A stretch of 64,000 nt of DNA from Methanoregula sp. PtaU1.Bin051 (lineage in GTDB: Archaea; Halobacteriota; Methanomicrobia; Methanomicrobiales; Methanospirillaceae), in assembly GCA_002067895.1 (NCBI GenBank), contig MVRE01000015.1, forward strand, positions 1 to 64,000, in the 5' to 3' direction. Positions 2,432 through 34,311 of this stretch are shown here, in pieces. The position numbers were made by a program, and so were the translations under genes. The notes below the pieces were generated by a model. It had not been told where the DNA came from. It worked only from the letters and a program-made list of their open reading frames with translations, and ran no database searches. The first letter of the stretch is position 1; the number at the start of each line of letters is the position of its first letter.

Positions 2432-2470
2432 CAATTTTACTGCCAGTTATTTCTTGGAAAAAGAAGTTTT

Positions 2471-3142: not shown

Positions 3143-3207
3143 TCAATGGTTTACAGTGGTATTAAAAAACATATCGCCACCTGCTCCCCGGCGGAGGATC
3201 CTGACGG

Positions 3208-3510
3208 TCATAACCCTTGTGCAGTCGACCGCTGCTCCTGCTTCGATCCCCGGATACAGAAATAGGTCCTGGATAGACCCGCAAGCTTGGTGACAGGGCA
3301 CGTCGGGCAGGTACAACCTTTCTTCTCAAACGTGCAGGAAGGACTCCTGCCCCGAATGCAGAAAAGAAGTTCTCCTTTCTCCCTCATGCACTCATTATAG
3401 GTCAGACAACTATTGCAGATGCAGAGTTCATGGAGACGGTCAATATCACCAGCCCGAGCTGTTGCATCTGATCCGGCAATCTTTTGTAAAAACACCTCTG
3501 ATGAGTTCAT
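3208..3510 (-). CDS. small cysteine-rich protein, DUF2769-like
   Basis: I take the ATG at 3510 (100 residues) because GGGGGGTC precedes it at the right distance; a longer frame to 3570 lacks a binding site. Ten cysteines are arranged as CxCxxC near residues 30-35, single cysteines at 41, 51 and 59, a CxCxxC at 66-71 and one at 85, separated by charged stretches. This pattern suggests one or more metal or Fe-S sites and resembles small methanogen proteins annotated DUF2769, a family of unknown role. It is divergent from the flavoprotein gene at 3574, with only 63 bases between starts, so the two may share a promoter region and a redox context. The family assignment is from memory of the cysteine pattern. 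Confidence 0.7.
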   Translation of the reverse strand: MNSSEVFLQKIAGSDATARAGDIDRLHELCICNSCLTYNECMREKGELLFCIRGRSPSCTFEKKGCTCPTCPVTKLAGLSRTYFCIRGSKQEQRSTAQGL

Positions 3511-3573
3511 GCGACCCCCCGTTGATCGGTTTTGGAATAAGTACATAATGAAAAACAAGGGATATTTCAATAC

Positions 3574-4311
3574 ATGCCTGCCCCACTAGTTGGACGGAAA
3601 TTCGGGATTCATACTGTTCCCCCGCTGTCGTTCGAACAGGCTAGGACAATTAAAGTTGTCGGAATCTCCGGCTCGAGCCGGCAGCAGCCCATGATGAGCA
3701 AGTCCGAACGCCTGCTTGACCGTGCCCTGGATAAGTACCGCAGCTATGGCTGCACTGCAGAATTTATCCGGTTAAAAGACCTCGTCATCCATGACTGCGA
3801 AGGCAATTACTCGGAGAATCCCGCGTACTGCACTTATCCCTGCCAGAGCTCGATGAAGTACGAGGATGACCAGATGCAGGTGGTTTACGATGCGATCCTC
3901 GGTTGCGATATACTGATCCTGGCAACCCCGATCCGGTGGAACAATCACTCTGCGCTGGTGCAGAAATTTGTCGAGCGGATGAATGCGATCGAGAACCAAT
4001 ATTCGTGGTTTGGGAACCAGATGATAAAGAATAAAGTCTGTGGCCTTATCATCATCGGCCATGTGGACGGAGTCCAGCATGTTGCGGGAAACCTGCTCAA
4101 TTTCTTTTCATGGCTCGGGTTCCATATTCCGGAAGACGCGATTGCATCATGGGTTGGGGAGAATGATGAGGATACGACAAGGGACTGGGAACTCATCGAA
4201 AAAAACCGGTACACAAAGGAAGATCTTGAGAACCTCGTTACCAGTTCTCTCCAGCTAGCGTATAACCTCAAGACGGCAAATCCCGACGGAGCGGAAGCTA
4301 AAATATTGTAA
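3574..4311 (+). CDS. flavodoxin-fold NAD(P)H-dependent FMN reductase / iron-sulfur flavoprotein-like
   Basis: The 245-residue protein has the flavodoxin-like FMN-binding start VVGISGSSR at about residue 28, followed by an alternating beta/alpha pattern with ILATPIRWNN near residue 125, typical of NADPH-dependent FMN reductases and methanogen iron-sulfur flavoproteins. Three cysteines lie between residues 74 and 91, where iron-sulfur flavoproteins have their cluster motif, but the compact CxxCxxC pattern is not present. A 4Fe-4S cluster is therefore doubtful. The N-terminal 27 residues before the first strand are an extension. It is divergent from the cysteine-rich gene at 3510. The physiological electron partner is unknown. 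Confidence 0.8.
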   Translation: MPAPLVGRKFGIHTVPPLSFEQARTIKVVGISGSSRQQPMMSKSERLLDRALDKYRSYGCTAEFIRLKDLVIHDCEGNYSENPAYCTYPCQSSMKYEDDQMQVVYDAILGCDILILATPIRWNNHSALVQKFVERMNAIENQYSWFGNQMIKNKVCGLIIIGHVDGVQHVAGNLLNFFSWLGFHIPEDAIASWVGENDEDTTRDWELIEKNRYTKEDLENLVTSSLQLAYNLKTANPDGAEAKIL

Positions 4312-4367
4312 ACCATAAATAGCATCGCCGTTCATGGTACATCAGAAGTAAGACCGGCCGGTGAATC

Positions 4368-5354
4368 ATGGTATTTCCTGTACGACGGATGAGAAGGGCA
4401 AGAATTAAGGCCATCCAGCCGATCCTCCGGCAGACCCGTATCACTCATGAGGATCTTGTTGTCCCCCTCTTTGTAGACCACAATCTCAAAAAAGCCAGCC
4501 CGATCGCATCAATGCCCGGTCAGTTCCGCTACCCGATTAGTGAGATGGGGGCCATTGCCGAAGAGATTCGGGATTCGGGACTGCGCGCCGTCCTCTTGTT
4601 CGGGATCCCGAAACATAAGGACGAACGTGCGACCGGTGCATATGAAGAAAACGGCGTCGTTCAGGAGGCAATAAGGTCGGTAAAGAGGGCTGTGCCGGAG
4701 ATGGTCGTTATCACGGATGTCTGTGCCTGCGAATATACGGATCACGGCCACTGTGGTATCATTGGCAAGACCCGGAGGGGGATTGATCTTTTAAACGACC
4801 CGTCGCTCGAACTGATGGATCGGATCGCTGTCAGTCATGCGGAGGCGGGTGCCGATATCGTAGCCCCTTCCTGTATGCTGGACGGGATGGTTAGCTCACT
4901 CCGTTCGGCGCTGGATGGGGCAGGATCTTCCGAAACCCTGATCATGTCATACTCCACGAAGTTCGCATCGGCTTTCTACGGGCCGTTCAGGGAGGCTGCA
5001 GACTCCGGCTATTCTTTCGGAGACCGGACATCCTACCAGATCAACCCGGCAAACAGGCGCGAGGCATTTCTTGAGTCCGAGCTTGATGCCGGGGAAGGAG
5101 CGGATATCCTGATGGTCAAACCTGCCGGTTTCTATCTCGATGTGCTTGCCGAAATCGCAACCCTCGGACTCCCAGTTGCAGCATACCAGGTGAGCGGAGA
5201 GTACGCAATGATCAAGGCCGCTGCGGAACGCGGGTGGATCAGGGAGAAGGAAGCGATCCTTGAGAGCCTCATCTGCATAAAAAGGGCCGGGGCAGATATT
5301 ATCATATCTTACTTTGCACGCGACGTAGCGGGGTGGCTTGTTGAAGAGCAGTGA
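4368..5354 (+). CDS. hemB: delta-aminolevulinic acid dehydratase (porphobilinogen synthase)
   Basis: This 328-residue enzyme condenses two 5-aminolevulinate molecules to porphobilinogen. The zinc-site segment [14 protein letters not shown] (about residues 123-136) has the three cysteines of the metal-dependent class. The two Schiff-base lysines lie in [12 protein letters not shown] and [11 protein letters not shown]. Length matches the family. GGTGA sits a few bases before the ATG. The gene overlaps hemL by 17 bases, so hemB, hemL, hemC and cobA form one transcription unit. No heme pathway specific to respiration is implied; in a methanogen the products are coenzyme F430, corrinoids and siroheme. 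Confidence 0.96.
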
Positions 5355-6582
5355 CCTTTTTGCCACGGCACGGCAGCTGATCCCGGGGGGGGTGTCGAGC
5401 CCGGTCCGTGCGATAAAGCCGTACCCGTTTTATACGGCGGAAGCATCCGGATCCCATATCCGCACCGTTGATGGCCGGGATCTTATTGACTGCTGCTGTG
5501 CTTACGGCCCTTTAATCCTCGGCCATGCAAATCCAGTAATACGCGGGGCGATTAAGTCCCAGCTGGAAAAGGGCTGGCTATACGGAACCCCGGTACCACT
5601 TGAGCCTGAATTTGCCCGGCTGATCACGTCAGACCACCCGGGTATGGATATGGTACGGTTTGTCTCAAGCGGGTCGGAGGCAACAATGGCCGCGATACGG
5701 CTTGCCCGGGGGTTTACCGGGAAACCGGACATCGTTAAAATAGAAGGGGGATTTCACGGAGCCCATGACGGTGTGCTGGTCAAGGCCGGGTCCGGTGCGA
5801 CAACGCTGGGTATTCCGGATTCCGCCGGGGTACTTGCGGACATTGTCGCCCATACACGGCAGGTTCCGTATAACGATCCCGAAGCACTTGAGTCCCTGTT
5901 ATCAGGCAATCCTGATATGGCAGCCCTGATCTTAGAACCTGTGATGGGGAACATTGGCCCGGTGCTTCCTGAGAAGAATTACCTGCAGGAGATCCGTTCG
6001 ATAACGAAAGCGCACGACGTCCTCCTCATCTTTGATGAAGTAATCACCGGGTACCGGGTCGGCATCGGGGGCGCACAAAAATATTTTAGGGTGCGGCCGG
6101 ATTTGACAACTCTTGGCAAGATCATTGGCGGGGGGCTCCCGATCGGCGCTTTTGGCGGACGCAGGGAGATCATGGAGATGACAGCACCGGCCGGCCCGGT
6201 TTACCAGGCAGGAACATTCTCCGGTAATTCGCTCTCTCTCTCGGCAGGAATTGCTACCGTGCGCTTCCTGCAGAAGAACCGCGGAATATACGGGGATCTT
6301 GAAAAGAAGAGTGCTGCAATAAAGGATTGTATCCCGAAAGATGCTGACGGTTCGTTTGTCTCTCTCGGATCCATGTTCAAGTATTTCTTCCGGCCTACAC
6401 CGCCGCGCAACTACCAGGAGGTCAAGGAGTGCGATACTGGAGCATTTTCAAGGTTCTGGACCTGTATGATGGACCGTGGAATTTTCCTTCCCCCGTCACA
6501 GTTTGAGACAAACTTCCTTTCCTCTGCGCATACCGAAGATGATCTCGAACGGATTATGGCGGCGTATGCATCATGCATCTGA
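5338..6582 (+). CDS. hemL: glutamate-1-semialdehyde 2,1-aminomutase
   Basis: This PLP enzyme of 414 residues converts glutamate-1-semialdehyde to 5-aminolevulinate, linking hemA to hemB. Family signatures are [11 protein letters not shown] near the N terminus, [20 protein letters not shown] for the cofactor aspartate, and [17 protein letters not shown], whose lysine forms the Schiff base. The start is a TTG at 5338 inside hemB; a second TTG follows at once at 5341, so the first residue is uncertain by one codon. It overlaps hemC by 10 bases. Length and motifs are complete. Confidence 0.95.
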
Positions 6583-7457
6583 AGGTCGGTACACGGAGCA
6601 GTAAACTCGCGCTCGCCCAGACAGAAATTGTGATCAGCAGGCTTACCGCGATGGGCATATCAGCGGAGAAGGTAATGATAACGACGCAGGGCGATGCAAC
6701 TACGGGAGTCCCGCTCCACGAGATCGGGGGGCAGGGGGTTTTTGTCAGGGCCCTCGACGATGCGATTCTCTCCGGTGAGATCGACTGTGCCGTACATAGC
6801 ATGAAAGACATCCCGGCCTACCGCCCGTCCGGGCTGTTTACGGCTGCCGTTCTGAAGCGGGATCCACCGACTGATTACCTTGCCTGTACAAAGGACCTTG
6901 ATGATGTAGAGATTATCGGGACTTCCAGCACCCGGAGGCGTGCCCAGCTCCTGCGCCATGATCCTGATCTTGCTATCCGGGACCTCCGGGGAAACGTGGA
7001 TACAAGGATCCGGAAACTGAATGCCGGCGAATATGATGCCATCGTGTTGGCAGAAGCCGGGTTAATCCGGCTATCGATCGATATCCCCGGCGAACGGCTT
7101 CCTGCAGACAAGTTCGTCCCATCGCCCAATCAGGGGACTATCGCCATTGTCAGCCGAGCCGATCCATCGCTAATGGAGATCTTCTCGGCACTTGATGATC
7201 CCGCAACCCGGACGGATGTAGCAGCCGAACGCGTGGTCATGGAGCAGCTGGGTGGCGGCTGTTTTACCCCTCTTGGAATCTACTGTAGATCCGGTCATCT
7301 TATCGCGGAGGTTCTTTCTATTGACGGGAGCCGTACTCAGCGGATCGAAGTCGATGTGCCGAGTATCGAAAGTGCGCGGGAGCAGGGACGTATCCTCCGT
7401 AACCGTGCCGACGACCTGATCGCAGAAGCGTATGCAGCATTGAAGGTGAGGACATGA
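6573..7457 (+). CDS. hemC: porphobilinogen deaminase (hydroxymethylbilane synthase)
   Basis: The 294-residue protein polymerises four porphobilinogens into hydroxymethylbilane. It has the N-terminal [12 protein letters not shown], the SMKDIP active-site loop, RRRAQLL substrate-binding arginines and the GGGCFTPLG segment with the cysteine that carries the dipyrromethane cofactor. It overlaps both hemL and cobA by a few bases. The gene that should act next, uroporphyrinogen-III synthase, is not adjacent. Confidence 0.96.
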
Positions 7458-9941: not shown

Positions 9942-10670
9942 ATGGCCAATTCAAAGGATCCGATCATCTATATTGTTGGTGCAGGCCCGGGTGATCCGGA
10001 TCTCATTACGGTAAAGGGAAAGACACTTCTTGAAAAAGCAGAAGTGCTCATTTACGCAGGATCGCTTGTCAACCCTGTACTTATAGCCTCCTGTCCAGCA
10101 GACGTGAAGGTTGACAGCTGGGGGCTGGAACTTGAGGAAATCGTAGCCCGGATGGAACAGCATGCAAAAGCCGGTCGGATAGTTGTACGTCTCCATTCCG
10201 GCGACCCATCCCTTTTCGGGGCAATTGTCGAACAGATGGAAGAGCTGGAACGGCGTGGTGTTAAAACCGAGATCATACCCGGCGTCTCCTCGCTTTTTGC
10301 TGCAGCGGCTGCGCTCCAGATCGAGCTGGTTCTCAACGGTATTACGGATGCGGTTGCCATTACCCGACCTGCAGGAAAAACTCTTGAAGAAGATCATATT
10401 CCCGAGCTGTCTGCGCTTGGGGCGACAATCGCGGTGTTTCTGGGCACTGACCGGTTCGGGGAGGTTACACAAAAACTCCGCTGTCCTCCCGATATGCCTG
10501 CTGCAGTCGTCTACCATGCTTCATGGCCGGACCAGAAGATTATACGCGGCACTGTCTCAGATATCGCAGCAAAAGCACGGGGCGCCGGCATCACGAAGAC
10601 TGCGCTCCTTATTGTCGGGCGGGTCGTAGATCCGAAGGGAGAGTACCGGAGGTCGCATCTTTACTCATGA
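9942..10670 (+). CDS. cbiF: cobalt-precorrin-4 C11-methyltransferase
   Basis: The ATG at 9942 is chosen over an in-frame ATG at 9927 because GAGGAAG precedes it by 7 bases; this gives 242 residues. The tetrapyrrole methylase signatures are VGAGPGDPDLITVKG, the CbiF/CobM-type IYAGSLVNP and LHSGDPSLFGA. It transfers a methyl group from SAM to C11 of cobalt-precorrin-4. It lies directly after cbiL and overlaps cbiG by ATGA. Confidence 0.93.
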   Translation: MANSKDPIIYIVGAGPGDPDLITVKGKTLLEKAEVLIYAGSLVNPVLIASCPADVKVDSWGLELEEIVARMEQHAKAGRIVVRLHSGDPSLFGAIVEQMEELERRGVKTEIIPGVSSLFAAAAALQIELVLNGITDAVAITRPAGKTLEEDHIPELSALGATIAVFLGTDRFGEVTQKLRCPPDMPAAVVYHASWPDQKIIRGTVSDIAAKARGAGITKTALLIVGRVVDPKGEYRRSHLYS

Positions 10671-11539
10671 CAGGAACTGTCGTAATCGCATTCCCGCGAT
10701 CGTCAAAATATGCACAAAAGATCGCAGACCACCTCAAAGCAACGTACTATCCCTACGATCCTGAGATATTCTCCCGGGTCTTTGCATCCGCCGACAGGAT
10801 CATCGCACTGATGGCAACTGGCATCGTTGTCCGTTCAATCGCCCCGCTCGTTCGGGATAAGTGGGTTGACCCTGCAATTGTCGTCGTCAGTCCGGACCTG
10901 TCATATGCAATCCCTTTAATCGGGGGCCATCATGGCGCAAACGATCTTGCCAGAGAGCTTGTGCCCCTCGGGATCCGTCCGGTCATTACGACGGCGACCG
11001 AGGCTCTCGGTAAAGAGGCTGTCGAAGCCATCGCCGTAAAAGAACAATGCGAGGTCCTCAACCGAGAATCCACGCGCCACGTGAATTCGGCAATACTCGA
11101 AACCGATGTCCCCGTACATCCCATTAACGGCCCTGCAGTCGTTATCGCCGGTCCCGGTGTGTCCGTACTGACAAGAAAGGGTAAATACGTTGTCGGTATC
11201 GGGTGCCGGAAGGGAGTGCGGAGCGGGGAAGTCATGTCGGCAATCGGACAGGCGCTTGCTACGTTAGGGATAGCGCACGATGATGTTTTTGTATACGCAA
11301 CAACGGTTAAGAAACTCCACGAACGCGGCCTTGCAGATGCGATCAACTCCTTATCTTCCGGCCTGATATTCCTAGATGACGATACTGTCAATGCACAGTC
11401 AGCACCTTCATCCTCGAAGGCTGGGAAGATCGGCCTTGCCGGGGTCGCTGAACCATGCGCTATTGCGATATCAAAGAAAAAGGAGCTTGTCATGAGAAAG
11501 ACTGTATACGGGAAGGTGACGCTTGCCATCGCACGCTGA
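10667..11539 (+). CDS. cbiG: cobalt-precorrin-5A hydrolase
   Basis: The ATGA overlap with cbiF fixes the start at 10667 (290 residues). CbiG opens the delta-lactone of cobalt-precorrin-5A and releases the C20 unit as acetaldehyde. The N-terminal half has the ATGIVVRSIAPLVRDKW and GGHHGANDLA segments of the family, and the C-terminal domain begins at VVGIGCRKGVRSGEV. Both domains are present, so this is the full-length form. It overlaps cbiH by 17 bases. Confidence 0.92.
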   Translation: MTGTVVIAFPRSSKYAQKIADHLKATYYPYDPEIFSRVFASADRIIALMATGIVVRSIAPLVRDKWVDPAIVVVSPDLSYAIPLIGGHHGANDLARELVPLGIRPVITTATEALGKEAVEAIAVKEQCEVLNRESTRHVNSAILETDVPVHPINGPAVVIAGPGVSVLTRKGKYVVGIGCRKGVRSGEVMSAIGQALATLGIAHDDVFVYATTVKKLHERGLADAINSLSSGLIFLDDDTVNAQSAPSSSKAGKIGLAGVAEPCAIAISKKKELVMRKTVYGKVTLAIAR

Positions 11540-12302
11540 GCAGGGATGGCTTGCCATTGTCGGCATAGGTCCGGGAAACCGTCAGCAGATGACAGCCCGG
11601 GCATTAAAGGTGATTGCGGGTGCCGATATCGTAATCGGCAATGATACGTACCTTGACCAGCTCGAATCACTTCTCACCAGGAAGGAAATTATCAGGAGCA
11701 CGATGGGGAAAGAGGTTGAGCGTGCGAAGGCAGCGATCGAATATGCAACGGAGCGGCGTGTTGCAATCGTTTCTGGAGGCGATGCAGGAGTATACGGGAT
11801 GGCCGGAATCGTCCTCGAAGTTCTCGAACATACGGGAATCGATCTGCATATAGAGATCGTGCCGGGGGTCACTGCGGCAAATGCTGCAGCGTCCCGGGTC
11901 GGTTCCCCGCTTTCCGGGGATTTCGCAGTCATCAGTCTCTCTGATCTCTTAACTCCTCTTAAAGTCATCGAGAAGCGTCTTTCCGCGATCTTCTCAGCAG
12001 GCATCCCGGTTGTCCTGTACAATCCAAAGAGCCGGGGCAGGCCGCACAACTTCGCCCGTGCCGTTACGATTGCCCGCAAGTACATGCCCGATACGGTCCC
12101 GGTTGCGATGATAAAAAACGCGTACCGTGACGGGGAAGAGATCTGCATAACAACGCTCGGGGAAGCGGAAAAGCACGAAGACTTCGTTGACATGCATACG
12201 ACTGTTATCATCGGTGGCGAGGAAAGCAGGATCTGGAGGATGGGAACTGATGTCAAAGGAATCATCACACCGCGAGGCTACCACAGGAAATATGTATACT
12301 GA
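11523..12302 (+). CDS. cbiH: cobalt-factor III C17-methyltransferase
   Basis: This 259-residue tetrapyrrole methylase carries out the ring-contraction methylation at C17. The signatures are VGIGPGNRQQMTARALKV, IGNDTYLDQL and VSGGDAGVYGMAG, all typical of CbiH/CobJ. The start is a TTG at 11523 inside cbiG; no ATG is available before the conserved N terminus. The late motif NPKSRGRP is also family-specific. The 4Fe-4S-binding C-terminal extension seen in some bacterial CbiH proteins is absent. Confidence 0.92.
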   Translation: MPSHAEQGWLAIVGIGPGNRQQMTARALKVIAGADIVIGNDTYLDQLESLLTRKEIIRSTMGKEVERAKAAIEYATERRVAIVSGGDAGVYGMAGIVLEVLEHTGIDLHIEIVPGVTAANAAASRVGSPLSGDFAVISLSDLLTPLKVIEKRLSAIFSAGIPVVLYNPKSRGRPHNFARAVTIARKYMPDTVPVAMIKNAYRDGEEICITTLGEAEKHEDFVDMHTTVIIGGEESRIWRMGTDVKGIITPRGYHRKYVY

Positions 12303-12936
12303 TCTTGGTGCCGAGACGCCGGAAGCGTACGCGATATCGAAAAAGTCACGGATGCTGGCACGTTCGGCGATTGGCAACACTAGCGTAGAAGACCGGATCC
12401 GCCAGCGGTGTGCGGTTGCGGTCGGTGATTTTTCATTCGCCCCGCTCATGCGATTCAGCCACGATCCCGTAGCTGCAGCCCTTTCGGCCCTTGACAACAG
12501 GGCTGTGATCATAACAGACATCCGTATGGTGCAGGTCGGCATCCTGAAGAAAGGGCATAACTCGGATGTGATCTGCGCGCTGGATTTCGGTTCGGCGCTT
12601 GCAAAGGAATGCGGGATCACCCGGAGCTCGGCAGGTTTCATTGCCCTTGGCGATCGCATCTGCGATGCGATACTCGTTATCGGAAATGCACCTTCAGCTC
12701 TCTTAACGATATGTACCATGGCGGGCGACGGCATTCGCCCGGCTGTAGTGATCGGAACTCCTGTCGGTTTTGTCAATGCGGCGGAATCGAAAGAAGTCCT
12801 GCGCGGGCTCGACATCCCGTCTGTGTCAAATGAAGGGACACGCGGTGGTACCCCGGTTGCCGTTGCGGCGATGAACGAGTGCATCACGATGTATGCGGAG
12901 AATGTCACTCATGCGAGATCCGGTAACCGGGTTTGA
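12250..12936 (+). CDS. cbiC: cobalt-precorrin-8 (precorrin-8X) methylmutase
   Basis: The enzyme moves the methyl group from C11 to C12 to give cobyrinate. Family segments are RCAVAVGDFSFAPL, DIRMVQVGILKKGHN and GTPVGFVNAAESKE, near the middle and the end. I start it at the ATG at 12250 because GGAGG lies 10 bases before it (228 residues); the ATG at 12292 gives 214 residues, closer to the usual length, and overlaps cbiH by only 11 bases. Either is possible. Confidence 0.9.
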   Translation: MSKESSHREATTGNMYTDLGAETPEAYAISKKSRMLARSAIGNTSVEDRIRQRCAVAVGDFSFAPLMRFSHDPVAAALSALDNRAVIITDIRMVQVGILKKGHNSDVICALDFGSALAKECGITRSSAGFIALGDRICDAILVIGNAPSALLTICTMAGDGIRPAVVIGTPVGFVNAAESKEVLRGLDIPSVSNEGTRGGTPVAVAAMNECITMYAENVTHARSGNRV

Positions 12937-13915
12937 GTACCCTGAAGAATGGGTTGCAAAGTGCCGGTCGACTGAATTATTGGAGCAGGCCAGCAAGGGT
13001 CTTGCAGTCCTCACGGCATCCGGTGCAGTCCTGCGCAGGGGATATACCACCGGTACAACGGCAGCGGCCGCCTGCAAAGCTGCAATACTTTCACTGAAGG
13101 ACGACATCGAATCCGTCACCGTCACGATTCCGTGCAGCCTTACGGTTGACGTACCGGTCAAGGCTGCAGGAGGAACAGCGGAATGCAGGAAGTATGGCGG
13201 TGATTATCCAAGTGATGAGACTGCCGGTATAACCGTTATTGCAACTGCAGTGGCGAAGGACAACGGGCTCGATCTCGTACCTGGTGCAGGCATAGGGATG
13301 TTTGTCCGTGACACCCCCCGGTTCAGGAAAGGTACCCCTGCAATCACCCCGGCCCCACTCGCCTGCATTCTCAGGTCGATGGAAGAAGCTTTAAAAAAGA
13401 CCGGTCTCTCCGGCGCTGCGGTCCTCCTTGAAATTCCGGAAGGTGCGGCTGTGGCAGCCCGCACACTCAACAAACGAGTCGGTGTCGAAGGCGGGATCTC
13501 TGTACTTGGTACTACAGGTCTCGTCGAACCTTGGGATGATCACCTGACGGCTTCAGCAATCGACCGGATTACCCGTGCCTCCAAGGTCGTACTAACCACA
13601 GGACGGATTGGACTCCGCCATGCCCGCCTCCGTTACCCGGATTATGAGGTTGTCCTTATTGGCTCAAAGATCCGAGATGCACTGGCTGCATCCTTGGGCG
13701 AAGTGATACTTTTCGGTCTACCCGCACTTATCCTGAAGTATATAAAGCCGGATATTCTCGCGGGCACCGGCTATACAACAGTTGAGGAGTTGAGTATATC
13801 GCCCGGTTTTGCCGGCATTGTTGCAGAATCCCTTGCAGAGTTCCAAAAGGAGATGCCGGATGTCCGCGTTGTCCTTATCAGCCGCGAAGGGGAAGTCATA
13901 GGTGAGAGTCGATGA
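12911..13915 (+). CDS. cbiD: cobalt-precorrin-5B C1-methyltransferase
   Basis: CbiD methylates C1 of cobalt-precorrin-5B. The family signature LRRGYTTGTTAAAACKAA starts near residue 37, and GIGMFVRDTPRF, GGISVLGTTGLVEPW and TGRIGLRHARLRYP follow in the usual order. The start at 12911 (334 residues) is favoured over two upstream ATGs because GGAG lies 11 bases before it. Its frame overlaps cbiC, and ATGA links it to cbiE. Confidence 0.93.
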   Translation: MRDPVTGFEYPEEWVAKCRSTELLEQASKGLAVLTASGAVLRRGYTTGTTAAAACKAAILSLKDDIESVTVTIPCSLTVDVPVKAAGGTAECRKYGGDYPSDETAGITVIATAVAKDNGLDLVPGAGIGMFVRDTPRFRKGTPAITPAPLACILRSMEEALKKTGLSGAAVLLEIPEGAAVAARTLNKRVGVEGGISVLGTTGLVEPWDDHLTASAIDRITRASKVVLTTGRIGLRHARLRYPDYEVVLIGSKIRDALAASLGEVILFGLPALILKYIKPDILAGTGYTTVEELSISPGFAGIVAESLAEFQKEMPDVRVVLISREGEVIGESR

Positions 13916-26255: not shown

Positions 26256-27038
26256 TTATTTTTTTAAGACTGTTATCTCCTTCCGCAGTTTACCCATTTC
26301 GATAATCTTCTTTGCAAGATCCCTGACCCTAATCCGCGCCGGATTATCTTTGGGAATCAGCGAAACGGGTTTTGCGTCAAGGTCTGCGGATTCTATCGCA
26401 GGATCATCGGGTATGAAAGCGATCGGGTTCTCACTTCCGGTATCGCCGATGGCTGTGCCTGAATGGAACCGGTTTATGACAACTTGGATCTTTTCTCGTT
26501 CGGTTCCGAGCTGGACAGCGATCTCCCGTATCCTGGTTATGGTTCTCAAAGCCCGAGCACCGGGATCGCTTACGATAAGGAGCATATCCGGTTTCCCGAT
26601 CGTGCCACGGGCGATATGCTCCATACCAGCTTCTGAATCGATTACGACGAACCGGTAGTCACGTTCAAGCTGCTGCATGCATTCCGATAGAAGGTCATTG
26701 GCAAAACAGTAGCACCCGCTCCCTTCCGGTTGCCCCATCGCAATCAGGTCAAAACTTTCAGCTTCTACAAGAGCCTGACGGAACCGGTACATCACATACT
26801 TGTGGCGGTTCATGCCCGGGGGAATAGCCCTCGTAAACGCCTCTTCACGCATCGACCCCAGCGTCTCGCGCACCGGAACCCCAAGCGCCTCATGAAGATT
26901 GGCATTCGGATCGGCATCTACTGCAAGTACCGGTGTATATCCGGCCTCGATTAGGGAACGGATCAGCAGAGAGGCAATAGTAGTCTTGCCGGTACCGCCT
27001 TTTCCGGCTACCGCGATCGTGAACGGATGTCCGGTTAT
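26256..27038 (-). CDS. CooC-type nickel-insertion ATPase, apparent ATA start
   Basis: Read from 27038 this frame gives 260 residues of a MinD/ParA-like P-loop ATPase. VAGKGGTGKT lies at residues 10-19, then VDADPNANLHEAL, LIVSDPGARALRTI and a VINRFHSG segment, as in CooC proteins that load nickel into CO dehydrogenase or acetyl-CoA synthase. No in-frame ATG, GTG or TTG precedes the P-loop; the first canonical ATG, at 26873, would remove it. ATA at 27038-27036 overlaps the TAA of the preceding gene as ATAA, exactly where an ATGA junction would be expected, and GGGGGTG lies 7 bases before it. It ends the acetyl-CoA synthase operon, which fits a maturation role for the A-cluster of AcsB. Confidence 0.85.
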   Translation of the reverse strand: MTGHPFTIAVAGKGGTGKTTIASLLIRSLIEAGYTPVLAVDADPNANLHEALGVPVRETLGSMREEAFTRAIPPGMNRHKYVMYRFRQALVEAESFDLIAMGQPEGSGCYCFANDLLSECMQQLERDYRFVVIDSEAGMEHIARGTIGKPDMLLIVSDPGARALRTITRIREIAVQLGTEREKIQVVINRFHSGTAIGDTGSENPIAFIPDDPAIESADLDAKPVSLIPKDNPARIRVRDLAKKIIEMGKLRKEITVLKK

Positions 27039-28078
27039 GGTCCGGCACCCCCTCTGCCCCTGATTCTTCGGGAGATCTCTGCTGCAGCCTGCATGATGGC
27101 CACTGCGCCACCCCTGTCGGCAAACCGGATTCCGCAGGTAGGTGTAATCAGGGACTGGGCGTCAAAAAGTACCGGGTCCATCCGGGAACAAAGCTGTGCC
27201 CTGATTGCAAGATATTTTTCATACAAGGTGTCTACAGTTTCCATTGCAAAGATCTTGTATTCGGCCGGAACAATCCCCCATGCGACAACCCCGCCCAGTT
27301 CCATGTATGAGATCACTGCATCGGAATAGAGCAGGAACTCCCGTGCCGTAGTATATGCATCGAGTGAGATAACGGACGGTTTCAGCCCGATTACAAATCC
27401 CCAGTCCGTATTGGAACAGCAGTGGATCCCAAGCCCGCCCTCAATAAGCCCGGCAATATCGTCCCACCCGGTCTGGACGGTTCCGTGATCGACGGGCACG
27501 ACCGATGAACCCAGCGAGGCGAGATATGGTTCGTTCAGGATGACGAGTGTGTCTGCAGTCTTTGTCTTTGAACGGATCTCCATTTCGCACCAGCGGGCTT
27601 TGAGGGCTATCAGTTTCGAGAGCACGTCCGCGAGCTGGCTGTCGTAATAGATCGGCCGTTTGTTGGCATCTACCACCTGCATGCCGAATGTGACCGGCCC
27701 TGTGACCTGGCACTTGAGTACCGGCAGGGGAGGGAGGTTTCGCGTCATCATGTCAAGGAATGCCGATGCATATTCCCGGTGGAAACCATAGGGGGAATAG
27801 TTTCTCTCGACATAATCCATGTACACCTTTTCCATTGCGGCTGTCTGGTCCCTGGTGCTGTCAAAGAATAGCCGGTCTTCCTTAAGTATCCTGCCTGGCA
27901 GCTGTTCGGAGTCGTTGAAAACGATGCTCTCGAGCTGCCCCCTGTTTGGGAGTGTCGGGATATAGGGAAAATCCGGAAAAACGGCAAGCACATCGTCATT
28001 TGCCAATCGCGGATCCGTATGCGGCAGGGCACCGACACCGGTAGCCCGCGATTGGGGCGGGGAGATCATCTTCGCCAT
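27035..28078 (-). CDS. MetE-like methyltransferase, candidate corrinoid-dependent methionine synthase (MesB type)
   Basis: I start at the ATG at 28078 (347 residues), which has AGGGTG upstream. It matches only the catalytic half of cobalamin-independent methionine synthase. The zinc ligands of that family are visible as H219 and C221 in GIHCCSNTDW and C315 in TPTCGIRF; the usual glutamate is replaced by D240. ILNEPYL (180-186) is the substrate-site strand. Short MetE proteins of this kind encoded beside acetyl-CoA synthase and corrinoid protein genes are known as core-MetE/MesB and take the methyl group from the corrinoid iron-sulfur protein. The neighbours here fit that role exactly. Assignment to MesB rather than another short MetE family is inference. 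Confidence 0.78.
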   Translation of the reverse strand: MAKMISPPQSRATGVGALPHTDPRLANDDVLAVFPDFPYIPTLPNRGQLESIVFNDSEQLPGRILKEDRLFFDSTRDQTAAMEKVYMDYVERNYSPYGFHREYASAFLDMMTRNLPPLPVLKCQVTGPVTFGMQVVDANKRPIYYDSQLADVLSKLIALKARWCEMEIRSKTKTADTLVILNEPYLASLGSSVVPVDHGTVQTGWDDIAGLIEGGLGIHCCSNTDWGFVIGLKPSVISLDAYTTAREFLLYSDAVISYMELGGVVAWGIVPAEYKIFAMETVDTLYEKYLAIRAQLCSRMDPVLFDAQSLITPTCGIRFADRGGAVAIMQAAAEISRRIRGRGGAGP

Positions 28079-28082
28079 TACT

Positions 28083-29984
28083 TTACACCCTTTTGATACG
28101 GCACGCATCCAGCATTTTCTGGACCATCGGAAAGAGGGTGAGATCCGTGTGAGGGAGGAACGAACTCATGGTATACTCGTCCATGAATGATGGCTCTGCG
28201 TTCAGTTCGATATACGCCATCCGGTTTGCGATTTCGTCGAGGGTTTTCCGCTCCCTGCGGTTGATAAGTGCAATGTTTGCCCCGGTCACAGCGCCGTTGC
28301 CGATATTCCGGATCTGGTCTGGATTTATCTCCGGGATAAGGCCGATGATCGTGGCATTTTTCTTGTTGATATAATTGCCGAATGCCCCGGCAAAATAAAT
28401 GGCGGTGATATCGTGGCGGGTGACGTCGGCCTCCTTCATCAGGGTAACGCAGGCGGCATGCACAGACGCCTTGCTCATGATCAGGTTTTTGATATCGTTT
28501 TCCGTTATCACAACGTCTTTGTTAATATCGGTATCTTTTGCCCAGGCAACAACGTATTCCGGAAAGTGGGCCCCGATCCGGATCCGGGGGTTTCCGATAC
28601 CGGTATCGATCCGTCCATTACGGTCGATGATGCAGGCAGCAAACAGTTCGGCTAGCAGGTCGATAAGTCCTGAACCGGTTATCCCACGTGGTTTCAGATT
28701 GTTAATCGTGGAATACGACGGTATAAGTGTTTCGGGATCGATTACGATCTTTTCGATCGCACCGGGGTTTGCCCGCATGCCGAAAAGGACTTCCCCGCCC
28801 TCAAGTGCCGGCCCGGCCGCTCCTGCACAGGAGAACATCCATTCACGGTTACCAAGGACAACTTCGAAGTTTGTACCGATATCGATGAGGAGGGAGACTC
28901 CCTCCTGTCCCGCCATGCCACAGGCAAGGATATCGGCAATGATATCTCCCCCGATGAAATCGCTGACCGCAGGAAATGCAAACAGGCCGCAGTTCCTGTT
29001 GCATGCGATCCCGATCCGGCTCGCAGCAACCGAGAGTGCCCTCTGGACGACCGGTACGTAGGGTTCGGCAATGATGTAGGCCGGGTCGATGCCGAGAAGC
29101 ATGTGCGTCATGACCGTATTGCCGGCAACAACGACCTCATAAATATCCTCGCGGTCGATGCCGGCATTGTCAGATGCGGTGGTCAGTGCCGTATTCACGC
29201 TTTCGATCGCAAGCGATTGGAGCTTTACAAGTCCGTTCTTGCGTGCATAATTCACCCGTGCGAGGATGTCCTCACCGCAACTGATCTGCCGGTTGTAATT
29301 CGAGGCAACTCCGACAACCTTCCCCTCCACCAGATCCCAGAGGTAGGCAACGATGGTTGTAGATCCGAGATCGACTGCCGCGCCGTAAACCCTTTTTGCG
29401 GTATCGTTCTCCTGGAGATCGATGAGGCGGTAGCCCCCGGGAACGAGTCCGACGGTTCCGGTCACTTTCCAGTCGCTGTGGCGAAGGATGGCAGGAATCT
29501 CCCGCATGACCTCAAGCGGGACATAGATCTTTTCCGCGGCCGGGCCGCCGTTTTTCTGGATACCCCAGAGAAGCCGGGTCAGGTCCGGTGAAGGGTCGGC
29601 CAGTGTCGGAGGCTGAAGTTCGACATAGAATTTCCTTACAGACGGGCGGAGATCGATCTTCTGGTCCCGGTGTTCAATTAGGATCTTCTGCTCCTGGATA
29701 AGCGAGCTTTCAGGAATAAAAACCTGAAGGTCACCCTGCACAGTCGTCTGGCAGGCAAGACAGGCCCCCTTTGCCAGTTCTTCTTCAGTGAAGAACCGTA
29801 AATACTTCTGCCGGTCGAACTCGGTTTTGCCGGATTGGATGTATACGATGCACTTTCCACATTTACCCTGACCGCCGCAGACCACGTTCATGTTCAGGCC
29901 GGCATTCTGGGCCGCATCCAGAATTGTTTTTCCCCTCTCGATATCGATCTTCCGGTAGCTTGGAAGGAATGTGACGGTGCGCAT
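28083..29984 (-). CDS. acsV: RACo-type ATP-dependent activator of the corrinoid iron-sulfur protein
   Basis: The 633-residue protein has an N-terminal plant-type [2Fe-2S] ferredoxin domain with C36, C41, C44 and C75 or C78, a linker domain, and a large actin-like ATPase region with VDLGSTTIVAYLWDL, LLIDIGTNFEVVLG, AGPALEGGEV and YFAGAFGNYI. Such proteins reductively reactivate the cobalt(II) form of corrinoid proteins. It lies directly between the corrinoid protein subunit genes and the MetE-like gene and abuts the upstream stop. This places it with the methyl-transfer machinery of the operon. Confidence 0.92.
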   Translation of the reverse strand: MRTVTFLPSYRKIDIERGKTILDAAQNAGLNMNVVCGGQGKCGKCIVYIQSGKTEFDRQKYLRFFTEEELAKGACLACQTTVQGDLQVFIPESSLIQEQKILIEHRDQKIDLRPSVRKFYVELQPPTLADPSPDLTRLLWGIQKNGGPAAEKIYVPLEVMREIPAILRHSDWKVTGTVGLVPGGYRLIDLQENDTAKRVYGAAVDLGSTTIVAYLWDLVEGKVVGVASNYNRQISCGEDILARVNYARKNGLVKLQSLAIESVNTALTTASDNAGIDREDIYEVVVAGNTVMTHMLLGIDPAYIIAEPYVPVVQRALSVAASRIGIACNRNCGLFAFPAVSDFIGGDIIADILACGMAGQEGVSLLIDIGTNFEVVLGNREWMFSCAGAAGPALEGGEVLFGMRANPGAIEKIVIDPETLIPSYSTINNLKPRGITGSGLIDLLAELFAACIIDRNGRIDTGIGNPRIRIGAHFPEYVVAWAKDTDINKDVVITENDIKNLIMSKASVHAACVTLMKEADVTRHDITAIYFAGAFGNYINKKNATIIGLIPEINPDQIRNIGNGAVTGANIALINRRERKTLDEIANRMAYIELNAEPSFMDEYTMSSFLPHTDLTLFPMVQKMLDACRIKRV

Positions 29985-31319
29985 CTATTGTTTCCACTCC
30001 TCGTGAAGAAACTCGCCGATATCGGCGGCATCCCTCGGCCCGACCATGACTTTCCAGCCGGTCGTCTCCTCGATCCTCCCTGAGAGGGGGGCTGCATAGC
30101 CCGGGATTATAAGCGTTCTGTGGGACACTTCGTTCTCAAGCCCGAATTTTTTGATCGCATCACGGACGAGAGTCTCGCTGAATTTACCGGAAGCTACCGC
30201 TGTCAGTACCGACAGACCCTCGGTATCGATGATGAACATAAAACAGGGGATACGGCTGGATTCGAGATAGCCTTCAAGCGTAAAGAACGTGAGGGAGAAA
30301 TTTACGGTCAGCAGGACCGGTGCATCCTTCGCCGGCGATCCGATGCGGTAGATGCCCGGGTTCATCTGGATGGGTTTCTGGGGATCTGTATAGATGTTCT
30401 GACGAAGCGTGAGCGAGGCCTTTGTCGCTTCGGGGGAAAGAGGATCGCAGATTATCACCGAAGCGTACTTCACGATGCCCAGTGCAAGATACGCATCCCG
30501 CAGGGCATTTCTGGCCGCATCGAGATATACCGGGTAACCGAGATCCGGAACGGTACGGGTGATGGCAAGCTGGCGGATTGCGGTCGATCGTACAATGAAA
30601 TCGTTGAGCGATTGCGGGGCGGGATCGAGCAGCAGGTCCTGTACGCCTTCGGCTGCGCAGTCCTTTGCGAGTATAGCCAGGTCATCAAGGTCTGGTGCTC
30701 TCACCACCAGCAGGCAGCCATGCTGCTTTGCAAGGGCGCACATCTCCCGGTAATTGGATCGGGTGGCTGCGTGGATGATCGGGCGGTAAGTCCCGCAATG
30801 GACGAGGGCTGCGGCAAGGGCATCCGTTGTTTCTGCGACCAGCACGAGAGGAAGGTCAGCGGTATTTTCCACGGTTTCTACGGCCTTTGCGAATACCTGG
30901 GGAGATTTGCTGGAATTTATGATGGTAATGCCATTGAACATGAGCCCCGTCCCGACACGGGTGAATGTCTCGTCCCTGACACGGGCAGCTACAGATGCGA
31001 TCTCGTCTCTGCTCTGCGTGTCCGAAACCCGCAGCATGATCCCCGGCGGGTTGTTGAAGGTCTTGTCGTGCCTGTACAGGACAAACTCCTCGCCTACGGT
31101 AAAGGATCGTTCACCGATCCCGATCTTCAGGCGCCTGATCGGGGGGCGCGTAGTTGCTCCGAGCACAGATTTTGCATTATCGTCCAGGTACGGGCAGAGA
31201 TCCACGTCAGCTTTTCCCGCGGCAAGTTTCATGGCGAAGGTGAGGCAGGTGGGATCCCCGCACTCCTTGCAGTTTTTCTTCGGAAGGATCTTGTAGATAT
31301 CGAGGGCTTTTAATGCCAT
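29985..31319 (-). CDS. cdhE: corrinoid iron-sulfur protein large (gamma) subunit
   Basis: I start at the ATG at 31319 (444 residues) because GGGAGGGG precedes it and the family begins there; a longer frame to 31355 overlaps the previous gene. The N-terminal domain binds one [4Fe-4S] cluster through C17, C20, C25 and C42, followed by a TIM barrel and a C-terminal B12-binding domain ending near GWKVMVGPRDAADIG. The subunit carries the methyl group between pterin, acetyl-CoA synthase and, perhaps here, the MetE-like protein. One base separates it from cdhD and its 3' end abuts acsV. Also called acsC in bacteria. Confidence 0.94.
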   Translation of the reverse strand: MALKALDIYKILPKKNCKECGDPTCLTFAMKLAAGKADVDLCPYLDDNAKSVLGATTRPPIRRLKIGIGERSFTVGEEFVLYRHDKTFNNPPGIMLRVSDTQSRDEIASVAARVRDETFTRVGTGLMFNGITIINSSKSPQVFAKAVETVENTADLPLVLVAETTDALAAALVHCGTYRPIIHAATRSNYREMCALAKQHGCLLVVRAPDLDDLAILAKDCAAEGVQDLLLDPAPQSLNDFIVRSTAIRQLAITRTVPDLGYPVYLDAARNALRDAYLALGIVKYASVIICDPLSPEATKASLTLRQNIYTDPQKPIQMNPGIYRIGSPAKDAPVLLTVNFSLTFFTLEGYLESSRIPCFMFIIDTEGLSVLTAVASGKFSETLVRDAIKKFGLENEVSHRTLIIPGYAAPLSGRIEETTGWKVMVGPRDAADIGEFLHEEWKQ

Positions 31320-31320
31320 T

Positions 31321-32271
31321 TCAGTCCCCTCCCGTTGGAACTTTACTATGTGCAAGGCTCCTGAAAGCCTCTTTCAGTTTCCCGATGCTATCCGGGTGAC
31401 GGACGCAGATAATCTCCGCGCCGGCTGCAGCGGCGGCAATTCCGGTATAAAACTCCCAGGCAACGGCCATGGTGTCCCGCGTTCCGGGCTCTGCATCCCG
31501 GACCTCTTTTACCGAGAGCGAATCGACAGCGGAACAGATCATGGGCATCGCAAGATCCGTATCTCCCTTAAGCGCTGAGAACCGGATACGTTCCATGGCG
31601 GAGTACGAGTACTCAAATCCGTACCCGAGCGTTCCTGTATACGGGTCGATCACAATATGATCCTGCGGGACGCCGATCTCTTTTAAGAGGATATTCAGCT
31701 GTTTTGCAAGGTTAATGTCGATAGGCGACTGGGCGATCAGCGAATGGTTGTACGCAAGGGCTGCAGCAGCGATGCTGCGGTACCGGCTGGCCTCCGCAGT
31801 GCCCAGAAGCAGCCGCTCGCCCTGCCCCGCCTCCCCGCATTTCAGGAAGACCTCGCTGTCGATCTTCGGTTCGTTGCTTCCCTCGATTATCAGGGGAAGG
31901 CCGGTTGCGTCCAGAACCAATTCGACGGTTCGTTTTACTGCCTCAAAATCCGAGTAGTTCCGCTGTCGCGTGCTCGTCAGATAAAGGCGGATAATGTCGG
32001 CTCCATAGGCTGAACCGGCAGTTTTTGCCCATTCGGCAGGACTGTTCACTACGTCGCCGCAATAGTTCGTGATGATAGGTGACCAGTACTGTGGGCTGTC
32101 ACAGAGCTCGAAGGCGATGAGGGGGGGCTTTGGAGTCTTTTCAAGAAACGGGAGGGTTGTTCCCCCTCCGATCCTGTAAGAGACGGCCCTCGTCCCGCCA
32201 TCGCTTTTTGTCGCCCCGATGACCACTTCGCGGATTACGGAATTCCAGTCGAACATGGCAGGCAGTCCCAT
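31321..32271 (-). CDS. cdhD: corrinoid iron-sulfur protein small (delta) subunit
   Basis: This 316-residue TIM-barrel protein is the partner of the gamma subunit. The order of segments (FDWNSVIREVVIGA, then ALAYNHSLIAQSPIDINLAKQ in part, VIDPYTGTLGYGFEYSYS and the RIRFSALKGDTDLAMP region) fits AcsD/CdhD. GAGGGG stands before the ATG. It lies 9 bases downstream of acsB and one base upstream of cdhE. The length is like that of the bacterial AcsD; archaeal CdhD proteins are usually longer, which again points to a bacterial-type gene set. Confidence 0.92.
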   Translation of the reverse strand: MGLPAMFDWNSVIREVVIGATKSDGGTRAVSYRIGGGTTLPFLEKTPKPPLIAFELCDSPQYWSPIITNYCGDVVNSPAEWAKTAGSAYGADIIRLYLTSTRQRNYSDFEAVKRTVELVLDATGLPLIIEGSNEPKIDSEVFLKCGEAGQGERLLLGTAEASRYRSIAAAALAYNHSLIAQSPIDINLAKQLNILLKEIGVPQDHIVIDPYTGTLGYGFEYSYSAMERIRFSALKGDTDLAMPMICSAVDSLSVKEVRDAEPGTRDTMAVAWEFYTGIAAAAAGAEIICVRHPDSIGKLKEAFRSLAHSKVPTGGD

Positions 32272-32280
32272 GCGATCCCC

Positions 32281-34311
32281 TCACACCAGCGGTTTCATGG
32301 TAAGGGCCGGGTGACCGGCCTTTTCCAGATAAATTGCGAGATCCTCGATAGTGACAGCCTTGGTTTCATCAGCAATCTTGTCAAAGAACCCGCCGAGTCC
32401 CTGTTTTTCCAGTTTTTCGGTAAACCGGTTTTTCAGTTCATCCTTGAGCTGTTGTGGCATCCATACAAGGCGCTCGATCCCCCCGTCGCCCTGCAGGAAC
32501 CGGTTGGAGATGATAAAATTTTTCGAAATACCGGTAAAACCCGGAGTCTGCGCCCCGCCCCCGATTGTTCCTGCGAGAGTGGAAAAAGTCATCCCTGAAG
32601 GCGTTACCCCCTTGAACTCACGGTTAACGACCATTATTCCGTTCACTTCCGGAAGCATGAGCGCTATGCACTCGAAACAGCCACAACAGGTCATCGGATA
32701 CTCCATGACGCTGTACAGGGAACACCGGTCAACCTCGCCATGACTTGCTTTCTTCACGAACTGATTAACCCCTTCATATTCTCCAGTCACCTGATTGATG
32801 ACCGCGCCTTTGCGGATGGGCTGGTTCGCACCGGCCGGGGATATCTCGTAGGCAATCCTCCCGTCAAGCCAGCTGATGGCACCACAGAGGGCGGGGCGTT
32901 CAGGAGTTATTACGCAGACATGGTTCGGGGCGAAGGTCTGGCAGAGTGTACAGGAATAGTAGGTATCAACGTCAGTGTCCAGCATCCCTTTAATACGGGC
33001 GTCCCGTTCGTCATATACTTTCTCGGCCGTGATTTTTGCTGCAAGAACCTTTTCCTGATCGGTAATGAAAGTGACCGAGACGGCGTCCAGCAGTTGTGGG
33101 AAATCCATCCGGAACTTGTTTGCAAGCAGTTTACCGATATGCTGAATCTTTACTCCCTTTGCCACAACTTCTTTTGAGATCCTGACCCAGATGAGGTCAC
33201 GCTGGGCGACATGCCAGGAGCCTTCGCCGTAATTGACAAAATTATGGATACGGCGTTCGAGAACAGGTTCGTAATCCTTCTTCATGGCCCTGCCTGCGAC
33301 GTGGATGAGGATGGCGAGGGGGTTTGCAGAGCCTTCCTTCATGGCATCGATCTCGGGTCCGATCACCGTCACCTCGCCATCCTTCACTTCGGCCGCATCT
33401 TTCATGGTCAGTAGCTCGAACGCCGGTGATCGCCCGCCGCCGAACTCGACATACATCTCTTCTTTCCGGATGCTCTTCCCTTCGAATGCCGGTGAGCATC
33501 CCATGGGAATGGGGATTGCGGTTACGGTAACTCTTATACCTTTTGCCTCCATTCCGCGTGCAACGGCATCATCCGGCGTTGCCTTGATCCACTGGTCTGA
33601 TTCGTACTGCCCGAGCGACACGATGGGGAAACCCAGCACCCGCATCGCATCAACAAGTGCGAGTTCTTCGTCAGAGAGGCCTGGGAAGACCAGTACGATT
33701 GCTTTAGCTCTCTCGACAGCGTATGATAACAGCCTGCCGGCATCTCCAGGAACAACACCACCAAACATCATGGCGACTCGAGCAACGATATCAATGAAAT
33801 GGACACCATGAAAATTCGTCGGACCGAGCGGGATGAGCCGGTAATCCAGCCCGACTTTTACACCCTCATTGGCAAGGGCTGAAACGACATCGCCGGCAAG
33901 GAATGTAAGCATGTATTTTTCCTGTAGCTCGCGGCAGATCCCTGCAGCGGCAGATCCCTGCTCAGGTTTCCCGATGAGGAGGGCGAGCCCGATGATACTT
34001 CCGTCAACAAGAGAGTATCCAAGCTTCCGCAGCACCGTATCCGGGATAAAACCTGTATAAGGAGCAGGGGGCCGCCCATCAAGTTCTGTTTTCTGCGCGA
34101 GGAGGCATTCGTGGGCAATGATCGGATTGTCCTGCATCTTTGTATAGGCTAAAGCAGCTGCTGCAGGATTGTGAACCGCGATACCGGTCAAAGCATAGGA
34201 CACCGGCAGGTGATATGCAGTTTCTTCATAGGCAAACGATGACGTGAGCGAATTCATTCGTTGTTTCAGAATCGTCTGACCGGAACTGACTGCAGTATTT
34301 ACGTCGATCAT
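32281..34311 (-). CDS. acsB: acetyl-CoA synthase, bacterial AcsB type
   Basis: The 676-residue protein assembles acetyl-CoA from CO, a methyl group and CoA. The A-cluster ligands are all present: C454, C457, C466 and C476 for the [4Fe-4S] cluster, and the C543-G544-C545 motif that holds the distal nickel. It also has the N-terminal region (about residues 1-300) that in bacteria contacts CO dehydrogenase and forms the CO tunnel. The archaeal CdhC lacks this region and is about 470 residues. No CO dehydrogenase gene is in the operon. It is the first gene of the minus-strand unit and is separated from the divergent surface-protein gene by 167 bases. Confidence 0.95.
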   Translation of the reverse strand: MIDVNTAVSSGQTILKQRMNSLTSSFAYEETAYHLPVSYALTGIAVHNPAAAALAYTKMQDNPIIAHECLLAQKTELDGRPPAPYTGFIPDTVLRKLGYSLVDGSIIGLALLIGKPEQGSAAAGICRELQEKYMLTFLAGDVVSALANEGVKVGLDYRLIPLGPTNFHGVHFIDIVARVAMMFGGVVPGDAGRLLSYAVERAKAIVLVFPGLSDEELALVDAMRVLGFPIVSLGQYESDQWIKATPDDAVARGMEAKGIRVTVTAIPIPMGCSPAFEGKSIRKEEMYVEFGGGRSPAFELLTMKDAAEVKDGEVTVIGPEIDAMKEGSANPLAILIHVAGRAMKKDYEPVLERRIHNFVNYGEGSWHVAQRDLIWVRISKEVVAKGVKIQHIGKLLANKFRMDFPQLLDAVSVTFITDQEKVLAAKITAEKVYDERDARIKGMLDTDVDTYYSCTLCQTFAPNHVCVITPERPALCGAISWLDGRIAYEISPAGANQPIRKGAVINQVTGEYEGVNQFVKKASHGEVDRCSLYSVMEYPMTCCGCFECIALMLPEVNGIMVVNREFKGVTPSGMTFSTLAGTIGGGAQTPGFTGISKNFIISNRFLQGDGGIERLVWMPQQLKDELKNRFTEKLEKQGLGGFFDKIADETKAVTIEDLAIYLEKAGHPALTMKPLV

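Follow-up and report, generated by a model that had tools for sequence, protein, structure and literature searches.

A conserved acetyl-CoA synthase operon without CO dehydrogenase in Methanomicrobiales: a candidate methyl-transfer module for methionine

Dehalococcoides mccartyi has an incomplete Wood–Ljungdahl pathway, comprising the acetyl-CoA synthase (ACS) AcsB, the corrinoid iron–sulfur protein (CoFeSP) subunits AcsC and AcsD, and a core methionine synthase (core-MetE), and no CO dehydrogenase (CODH). CO accumulates in this organism, and the proposed model is that acetyl-CoA is cleaved with release of CO, the methyl group passing to homocysteine (PMC7005905, PMC6113397). In the bacterial Wood–Ljungdahl pathway, CoFeSP is loaded from methyl-tetrahydrofolate by the methyltransferase AcsE. 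The N-terminal domain of ACS, A1, is the CODH-docking domain in acetogens, and is stated to be lacking in every modern archaeal ACS (PMC11474084). What Cdh does in acetate-requiring Methanospirillum has been called undefined or unclear (PMC4704411, PMC11346949). Price et al. (2021, PMC7857596) have already linked MesB-type methionine synthases to CoFeSP, and have reported that certain methanogens have mesB, acsC and acsD in one operon and that both MesA and MesB are present in some Methanomicrobiales. Here we describe an operon of this general kind, at positions 26256–34311 on the minus strand of a 64,000-nucleotide stretch of Methanoregula sp. PtaU1.Bin051 (contig MVRE01000015.1, our C15), which we call ‘the window’. 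The host is a methanogen, and its genome (2.31 Mb in 23 contigs) is 96% complete.

The initial annotation, made from the letters alone, read the locus as acsB, cdhD, cdhE, a RACo activator, a MetE-like protein and a CooC ATPase, on a single strand with tiny gaps. All six genes are where it placed them, in the order acsB–acsD–acsC–RACo–mesB–acsF and with gaps of 0–9 bases:

32281–34311, minus strand: acsB, full-length bacterial-type acetyl-CoA synthase (domains A1, A2 and A3), 676 amino acids (aa); NF040764 at 910 bits, ACS matches in the PDB, tree, AlphaFold2 (AF2) model with a predicted local distance difference test (pLDDT) score of 82
31321–32271, minus strand: acsD/cdhD, small subunit of CoFeSP, 316 aa; NF003376 at 367 bits (cut-off 280), top PDB match 4djd_D, tree
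29985–31319, minus strand: acsC/cdhE, large subunit of CoFeSP, which binds corrinoid and Fe4S4, 444 aa; NF003195 at 548 bits (cut-off 306), top PDB match 2h9a_A
28083–29984, minus strand: RACo/AcsV-like protein of 633 aa for the reductive activation of CoFeSP; Pfam domains RACo_C_ter, Raco_middle, RACo_linker and Fer2, full-length match to PDB 3zyy
27035–28078, minus strand: MesB-type core methionine synthase; zinc ligands, AF2 fold, Foldseek
26256–27038, minus strand: AcsF/CooC-like ATPase, with P-loop and CYC metal motif; top PDB match CooC 3kje

Because AcsB matches the model for full-length alpha/beta ACS (NF040764, cut-off 800) over positions 4–705, the A1 domain is present, and the early claim that this protein keeps the bacterial N-terminal region is correct. 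Residues 7–675 align to PDB 6ytt, and the AF2 model contains a helical bundle and Rossmann elements. The A-cluster ligands are complete, as was also claimed (Cys 454, 457, 466, 476, 543 and 545). Throughout the Methanomicrobiales, the four Fe4S4 cysteines are kept in 91 of 91 AcsB sequences and the Cys-Gly-Cys motif in 90, the remaining sequence having a gap there. The residues of the CO alcove are highly conserved in bacteria (PMC11321310). We checked six second-sphere residues (Moorella numbering), five of the alcove and R142 near it. Five are conserved, namely R142, G145, V149, F229 and F512. At the sixth, Ile146, all 91 sequences have tyrosine (Tyr99 in the AcsB of the window), and seven comparators have isoleucine or valine; isoleucine, leucine, valine and threonine are the residues reported there (PMC12289521). 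Alcove residues are typical of characterised AcsB without strictly defining it, and the tyrosine is a variant within the family. Since a bulky residue at this position is proposed to put strain on Ni-acetyl and so help C–C cleavage (PMC12289521), the bigger tyrosine side chain could tilt AcsB toward cleavage. Truncation work cited in the same paper found the N-terminal domain critical for the reverse reaction. In the Methanomicrobiales AcsB sequences that were printed, 16 residues of the A1 helical bundle are missing, between predicted helices 49–58 and 63–78.

For AcsD, AcsC and RACo, matches to bacterial proteins of known structure extend across nearly their entire lengths. AcsD is short, as noted at the outset and as in bacteria (316 aa vs 391–461 aa for CdhD of the archaeal acetyl-CoA decarbonylase/synthase, ACDS). 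RACo comprises Fer2, linker, middle and C-terminal ASKHA domains; its score against NF040756, 557 bits, lies under the cut-off of 800. The protein was initially regarded as typical of acetogens, and this is weakened: RACo also adjoins ordinary ACDS genes in several Methanomicrobiales, and so is not a mark of acetogens. The ATPase has a P-loop and a CYC (CxC) metal motif, aligned with CooC 3kje. AcsF is the nickel insertase of ACS, and because the operon has an ACS and no CODH to serve, we read the ATPase as AcsF, a likely nickel insertase for the A-cluster; its first name, CooC, holds as a likeness, and AcsF/CooC-like is preferred.

No Pfam or NCBIfam model picks up the MetE-like gene, which was consequently identified by fold and zinc ligands. 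The ligands, H229-x-C231, D250 and C325 (357-aa numbering), are invariant in 92 of 92 sequences and form the HCDC pattern, Asp replacing Glu, that is reported for MesB (PMC7857596). The AF2 model (pLDDT 92.6) has the fold of the MetE catalytic domain, and its 24 best Foldseek matches in the PDB are cobalamin-independent methionine synthases, with E-values down to 1e-7. An hhalign comparison with the MesA of the same genome pairs the H-x-C and the final Cys, at a low E-value, 0.00026, and a weak probability, 42%. ‘MetE-like’ is right as to fold, and ‘MesB-type’ is the better designation, judged from the ligands and the predicted fold rather than from a score against the D. mccartyi MesB (DET0516). 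In-frame stops flagged in the mesB genes of relatives are upstream of the start or C-terminal in the copies re-examined, outside the catalytic core, and give no sign of recoding.

No CODH is encoded in the operon, as first reported, and searches with PF03063, TIGR01702 and TIGR00314 found none in the whole genome. The two genomic members of the Prismane/CODH family (PF03063) are both the hydroxylamine reductase Hcp, and profiles for the CODH catalytic subunits CooS (TIGR01702) and CdhA (TIGR00314) gave zero matches; for this genome, the earlier idea of a CODH encoded elsewhere is not supported. Nor was AcsE found in it: the sole match to the pterin-binding family PF00809 is a dihydropteroate synthase. 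The latter belongs to a glyA–folD–folP–cofE-like cluster (G000:C13:183000–188000, locus L196), folate-type one-carbon genes in a methanogen. The genome has an AMP-forming acetyl-CoA synthetase homologue above the cut-off, whose matched stretch contains one TAA; another homologue scores below the cut-off.

The operon might be taken for an isolated case, and it is not one. We surveyed 199 genomes of the order Methanomicrobiales, and AcsB occurs in 84 of them (42%; 82 full-length, two more in pieces). MesB likewise occurs in 84, and the two are found together in 83 (Fisher p 2e-54; our co-occurrence p-values ignore relatedness), the exceptions being one genome with AcsB only, on a short contig, and one with MesB only. 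The early suspicion that the methyl branch matters is supported by this pairing. MesB is absent from all 16 genomes that have archaeal CdhA without operon-type AcsB. AcsB and CooS show no association (odds ratio 1.02, p = 1). Archaeal CdhA is also found in 40 of the AcsB carriers; of the rest, 27 have CooS only (CooS occurs in 45 in all) and 17 have neither. These 17 come from 10 genera. In nine of them completeness is 90% or higher, and the assembly of G004 consists of one contig of 1,980,381 bases. We reject, on the strength of these carriers, the possibility that a CODH was simply missed through incompleteness.

The six genes have the same order in all 72 complete copies, some of which are one locus obtained by two routes. 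Partial copies all stop at a contig end, with the exception of locus L073 in a Methanoregula assembly (L073:5994–8059), where the operon ends after acsC and is followed by 2 kb of unrelated sequence; this is a genuine truncation or else an artefact of assembly. Between G112 and G004, both CODH-less and of the same genus (g19), the ratio of nonsynonymous to synonymous substitution rates (dN/dS) is 0.12–0.19 for all six genes, at an unsaturated dS of ∼0.67, which indicates purifying selection on the operon in the absence of CODH. In pairs further apart, synonymous sites are mostly saturated, and the agreement with a low dN/dS is qualitative only. Contamination was considered and rejected, the more than 70 complete copies of the operon being scattered over many separate assemblies, single-contig genomes among them.

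On the basis of this gene content, and of the kept catalytic residues, the conserved gene order, the absence of CODH and AcsE from the Methanoregula genome and the selection acting in CODH-less lineages, we propose that ACS, CoFeSP and MesB form a methyl-transfer module that works independently of CODH and serves methionine formation rather than carbon fixation, with acetyl-CoA cleavage as its probable source of methyl groups. We put the chances of this reading at about even. AcsF would load nickel into AcsB, and RACo would hold the corrinoid cobalt of AcsCD as Co(I). The A-cluster of AcsB and AcsCD would then exchange a methyl group, which MesB would hand from AcsCD to homocysteine to form methionine. 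The likeliest methyl source would be acetyl-CoA from assimilated acetate, cleaved by AcsB to CoA, CO and methyl; the CO would exit the cell, or be oxidized by a separate CooS where one is present. We infer the cleavage direction, the transfer from AcsCD to MesB, and the release of CO, the direction and the methyl source after the Dehalococcoides model.

Several points weigh against this proposal. The main weaknesses are that MesA already supplies methionine synthesis in nearly all of these genomes, and that the direction in which AcsB works is not readable from its sequence. The alcove tyrosine is a clade-level feature that occurs also in genomes with CODH, and so does not track CODH loss; and 67 of the 84 carriers do possess CooS or ACDS. 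That MesB accepts methyl groups from CoFeSP is itself a prediction from the literature. MesB is not the sole methionine synthase candidate of the genome, and is unneeded for methionine as such, because MesA is present too (G000:C12; PRK00957 at 391 bits, cut-off 258), as it is in 188 of the 199 genomes. Finally, hydrogenotrophic methanogens are rich in methyl-tetrahydromethanopterin (methyl-H4MPT), a cheaper source of methyl groups, from which CdhD and CdhE of archaeal ACDS are able to accept methyl. A bolder form of the proposal, which we regard as tentative, is that AcsB, with its alcove tyrosine and reduced A1, is a dedicated acetyl-CoA breaker, permanently CODH-less, that serves as methyl donor for methionine and yields CO as waste; archaeal ACDS, where present, would then perform the usual CODH/ACS chemistry.

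AcsB might instead work in the direction of synthesis, combining CO taken from partners or a separate CooS with methyl brought by AcsCD from methyl-H4MPT to make acetyl-CoA, while MesB shares the methyl-AcsCD. We think this unlikely, although all A-cluster ligands and the alcove residues except Ile146 are kept, and CooS is at hand in 45 of the 84 carriers. A point in its favour, too, is a CooS unit ∼2 kb downstream of AcsF, within reach of the operon in three relatives alone: L101, L178 (of which L100 is a duplicate) and L179. A free-CO route sits poorly with 17 carriers that lack CODH, with the absent association between AcsB and CooS, and with tyrosine in the alcove of every copy; another alcove change, F229A, cut CO affinity and blocked autotrophic growth (PMC11321310). 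Methanospirillum strains that have CODH/ACS genes, moreover, still need acetate (PMC11346949, PMC4704411).

Methyl groups might also flow from methyl-H4MPT through AcsCD and MesB to methionine, as a second route beside MesA, with AcsB contributing little, for example by disposing of surplus methyl or CO. This is in keeping with the constant company of AcsCD, RACo and MesB, with the failure to find AcsE in the Methanoregula genome, and with the plentiful methyl-H4MPT of hydrogenotrophs. It leaves unexplained why acsB and acsF invariably open and close the operon and are held by purifying selection of equal strength, and why MesB is absent from ACDS-only genomes, which have CdhDE and often RACo; we consider it quite unlikely. 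Very unlikely, in our estimation, is the view that the operon generally partners CODHs, and that the CODH-less genomes are incomplete assemblies or decaying relics. The 67 carriers with CooS or CdhA invite it, but the CODH-less carriers include, besides the single-contig genome, eight others at least 90% complete, the low dN/dS was measured between two of their number, and AcsB and CooS are statistically independent. Linked CooS genes, too, are rare, and at L178:3423–6256 CooS forms a separate unit with its own CooC-like ATPase, the intervening genes being unrelated.

As to ancestry, the A2/A3-core tree unites the AcsB proteins of Methanomicrobiales in one clade (100/99), which a 100/100 branch places with the bacterial enzymes; the AcsB of the window is nearest to Methanoregulaceae. 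Archaeal CdhC proteins, even those from the same genomes, lie on the opposite side of that branch, which supports the view that the protein is bacterial-type AcsB and not archaeal CdhC. For AcsD, AcsC and RACo, too, the operon copies of each protein fall into a single clade, separate from the ACDS copies. Because the AcsB clade is deep, spread over several families and invariant in gene order, an acquisition that is old within the order fits this bacterial-type lineage better than a recent one. No donor was identified among the four bacterial AcsB sequences available, three of them in the tree. The best 80 of 195 matches in a contig search for AcsB were all Methanomicrobiales, viral contigs held no AcsB, and a plasmid search returned one bacterial AcsB, on a record of Acetoanaerobium noterae (NZ_CP154629.1, locus L175). 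With its 2.63 Mb, and with acsB and the acs operon on it, this record appears to be a chromosome that was entered as a plasmid. That an acetogen operon was transferred recently into the Methanoregula genome, as the bacterial side of the tree might suggest, is most improbable given one deep clade across several families, an invariant operon in 42% of the sampled order, and an acetogen operon (that of A. noterae) with a different gene order and no MesB; the ‘transferred acetogen machinery’ first proposed is thereby weakened and half right, in that the lineage is bacterial-type but old within the order.

In the wider phylum, full-length AcsB was otherwise seen in one family (f7) only, where a CooS-type CODH and a full-length AcsB share one open frame of ∼1,400 aa, followed by acsD and acsC and without mesB (L189:6555–10775, on G217:C47; also L163, L164, L165 and L167). 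To judge by its reading frame, this is a natural CODH–ACS fusion.

Some details of the genes and their surroundings deserve mention. The starts of AcsC (ATG at 31319) and MesB (ATG at 28078) were assigned by homology; their open reading frames begin at a TTG at 31355, and at 28108, respectively. The acsF start, at 27038, is not ATG, GTG or TTG, and by comparison of start codons is probably ATA. None of these three codons stands at the conserved position in L180, L190 or L067 either, and in the Methanoregula genome and near relatives the ATA or ATC is preceded by a short purine-rich stretch resembling GGTGA or GGGGTG, which suggests a conserved non-canonical start codon. A search of the window for riboswitches found none, and for RNA features only two tRNAs. 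Genes apparently for tetrapyrrole (hemA/B/L/C) and corrinoid (cbiG, cbiD) biosynthesis, recognized by reading, occupy 1139–7457 and 10523–13915, so that corrinoid-biosynthesis-like genes share the window with a corrinoid-dependent operon.

In the open-access literature we found no report of a bacterial-type, A1-containing, CODH-less ACS in methanogens, nor of the tyrosine substitution. About 40% of the methanogen order as sampled here has an A1-containing ACS, and a second archaeal family has one in the form of the CooS–AcsB fusion. The operon offers a testable reason why genomes retain ACS genes though CO2 fixation with them is impossible or unneeded. The change from isoleucine to tyrosine may be a natural experiment on the control of direction in the acetyl-CoA synthase reaction, and the proposed module would extend to archaea the CODH-less, CO-releasing route put forward for Dehalococcoides.

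Compared with the CODH/ACS of acetogens (AcsAB), the operon has in common a full-length AcsB (A1, A2 and A3), AcsC, AcsD, RACo and AcsF; it differs in lacking AcsA and AcsE, in the addition of MesB, in the replacement of the alcove Ile/Val by tyrosine, and in an A1 that is 16 residues shorter. With archaeal ACDS (CdhABCDE) it shares the A2/A3 core of ACS and the CoFeSP homologues, and RACo and CooC often accompany ACDS in Methanomicrobiales; unlike ACDS, it is without CdhA and CdhB, its AcsB has A1, its proteins form separate clades in all trees, and ACDS-only genomes are without MesB. The available portion of PMC7857596 does not describe the absence of CODH, the bacterial-type AcsB, the separation from ACDS, or the fixed six-gene unit. 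The resemblance to the incomplete Wood–Ljungdahl pathway of D. mccartyi lies in an ACS and a CoFeSP without CODH or AcsE, and in an HCDC-type MesB. The alcove tyrosine and shortened A1 of the Methanoregula AcsB were defined against sequences other than D. mccartyi AcsB; what sets the two systems apart is that here the host is an archaeal methanogen, the six genes make up one conserved operon, and MesA is present as well.

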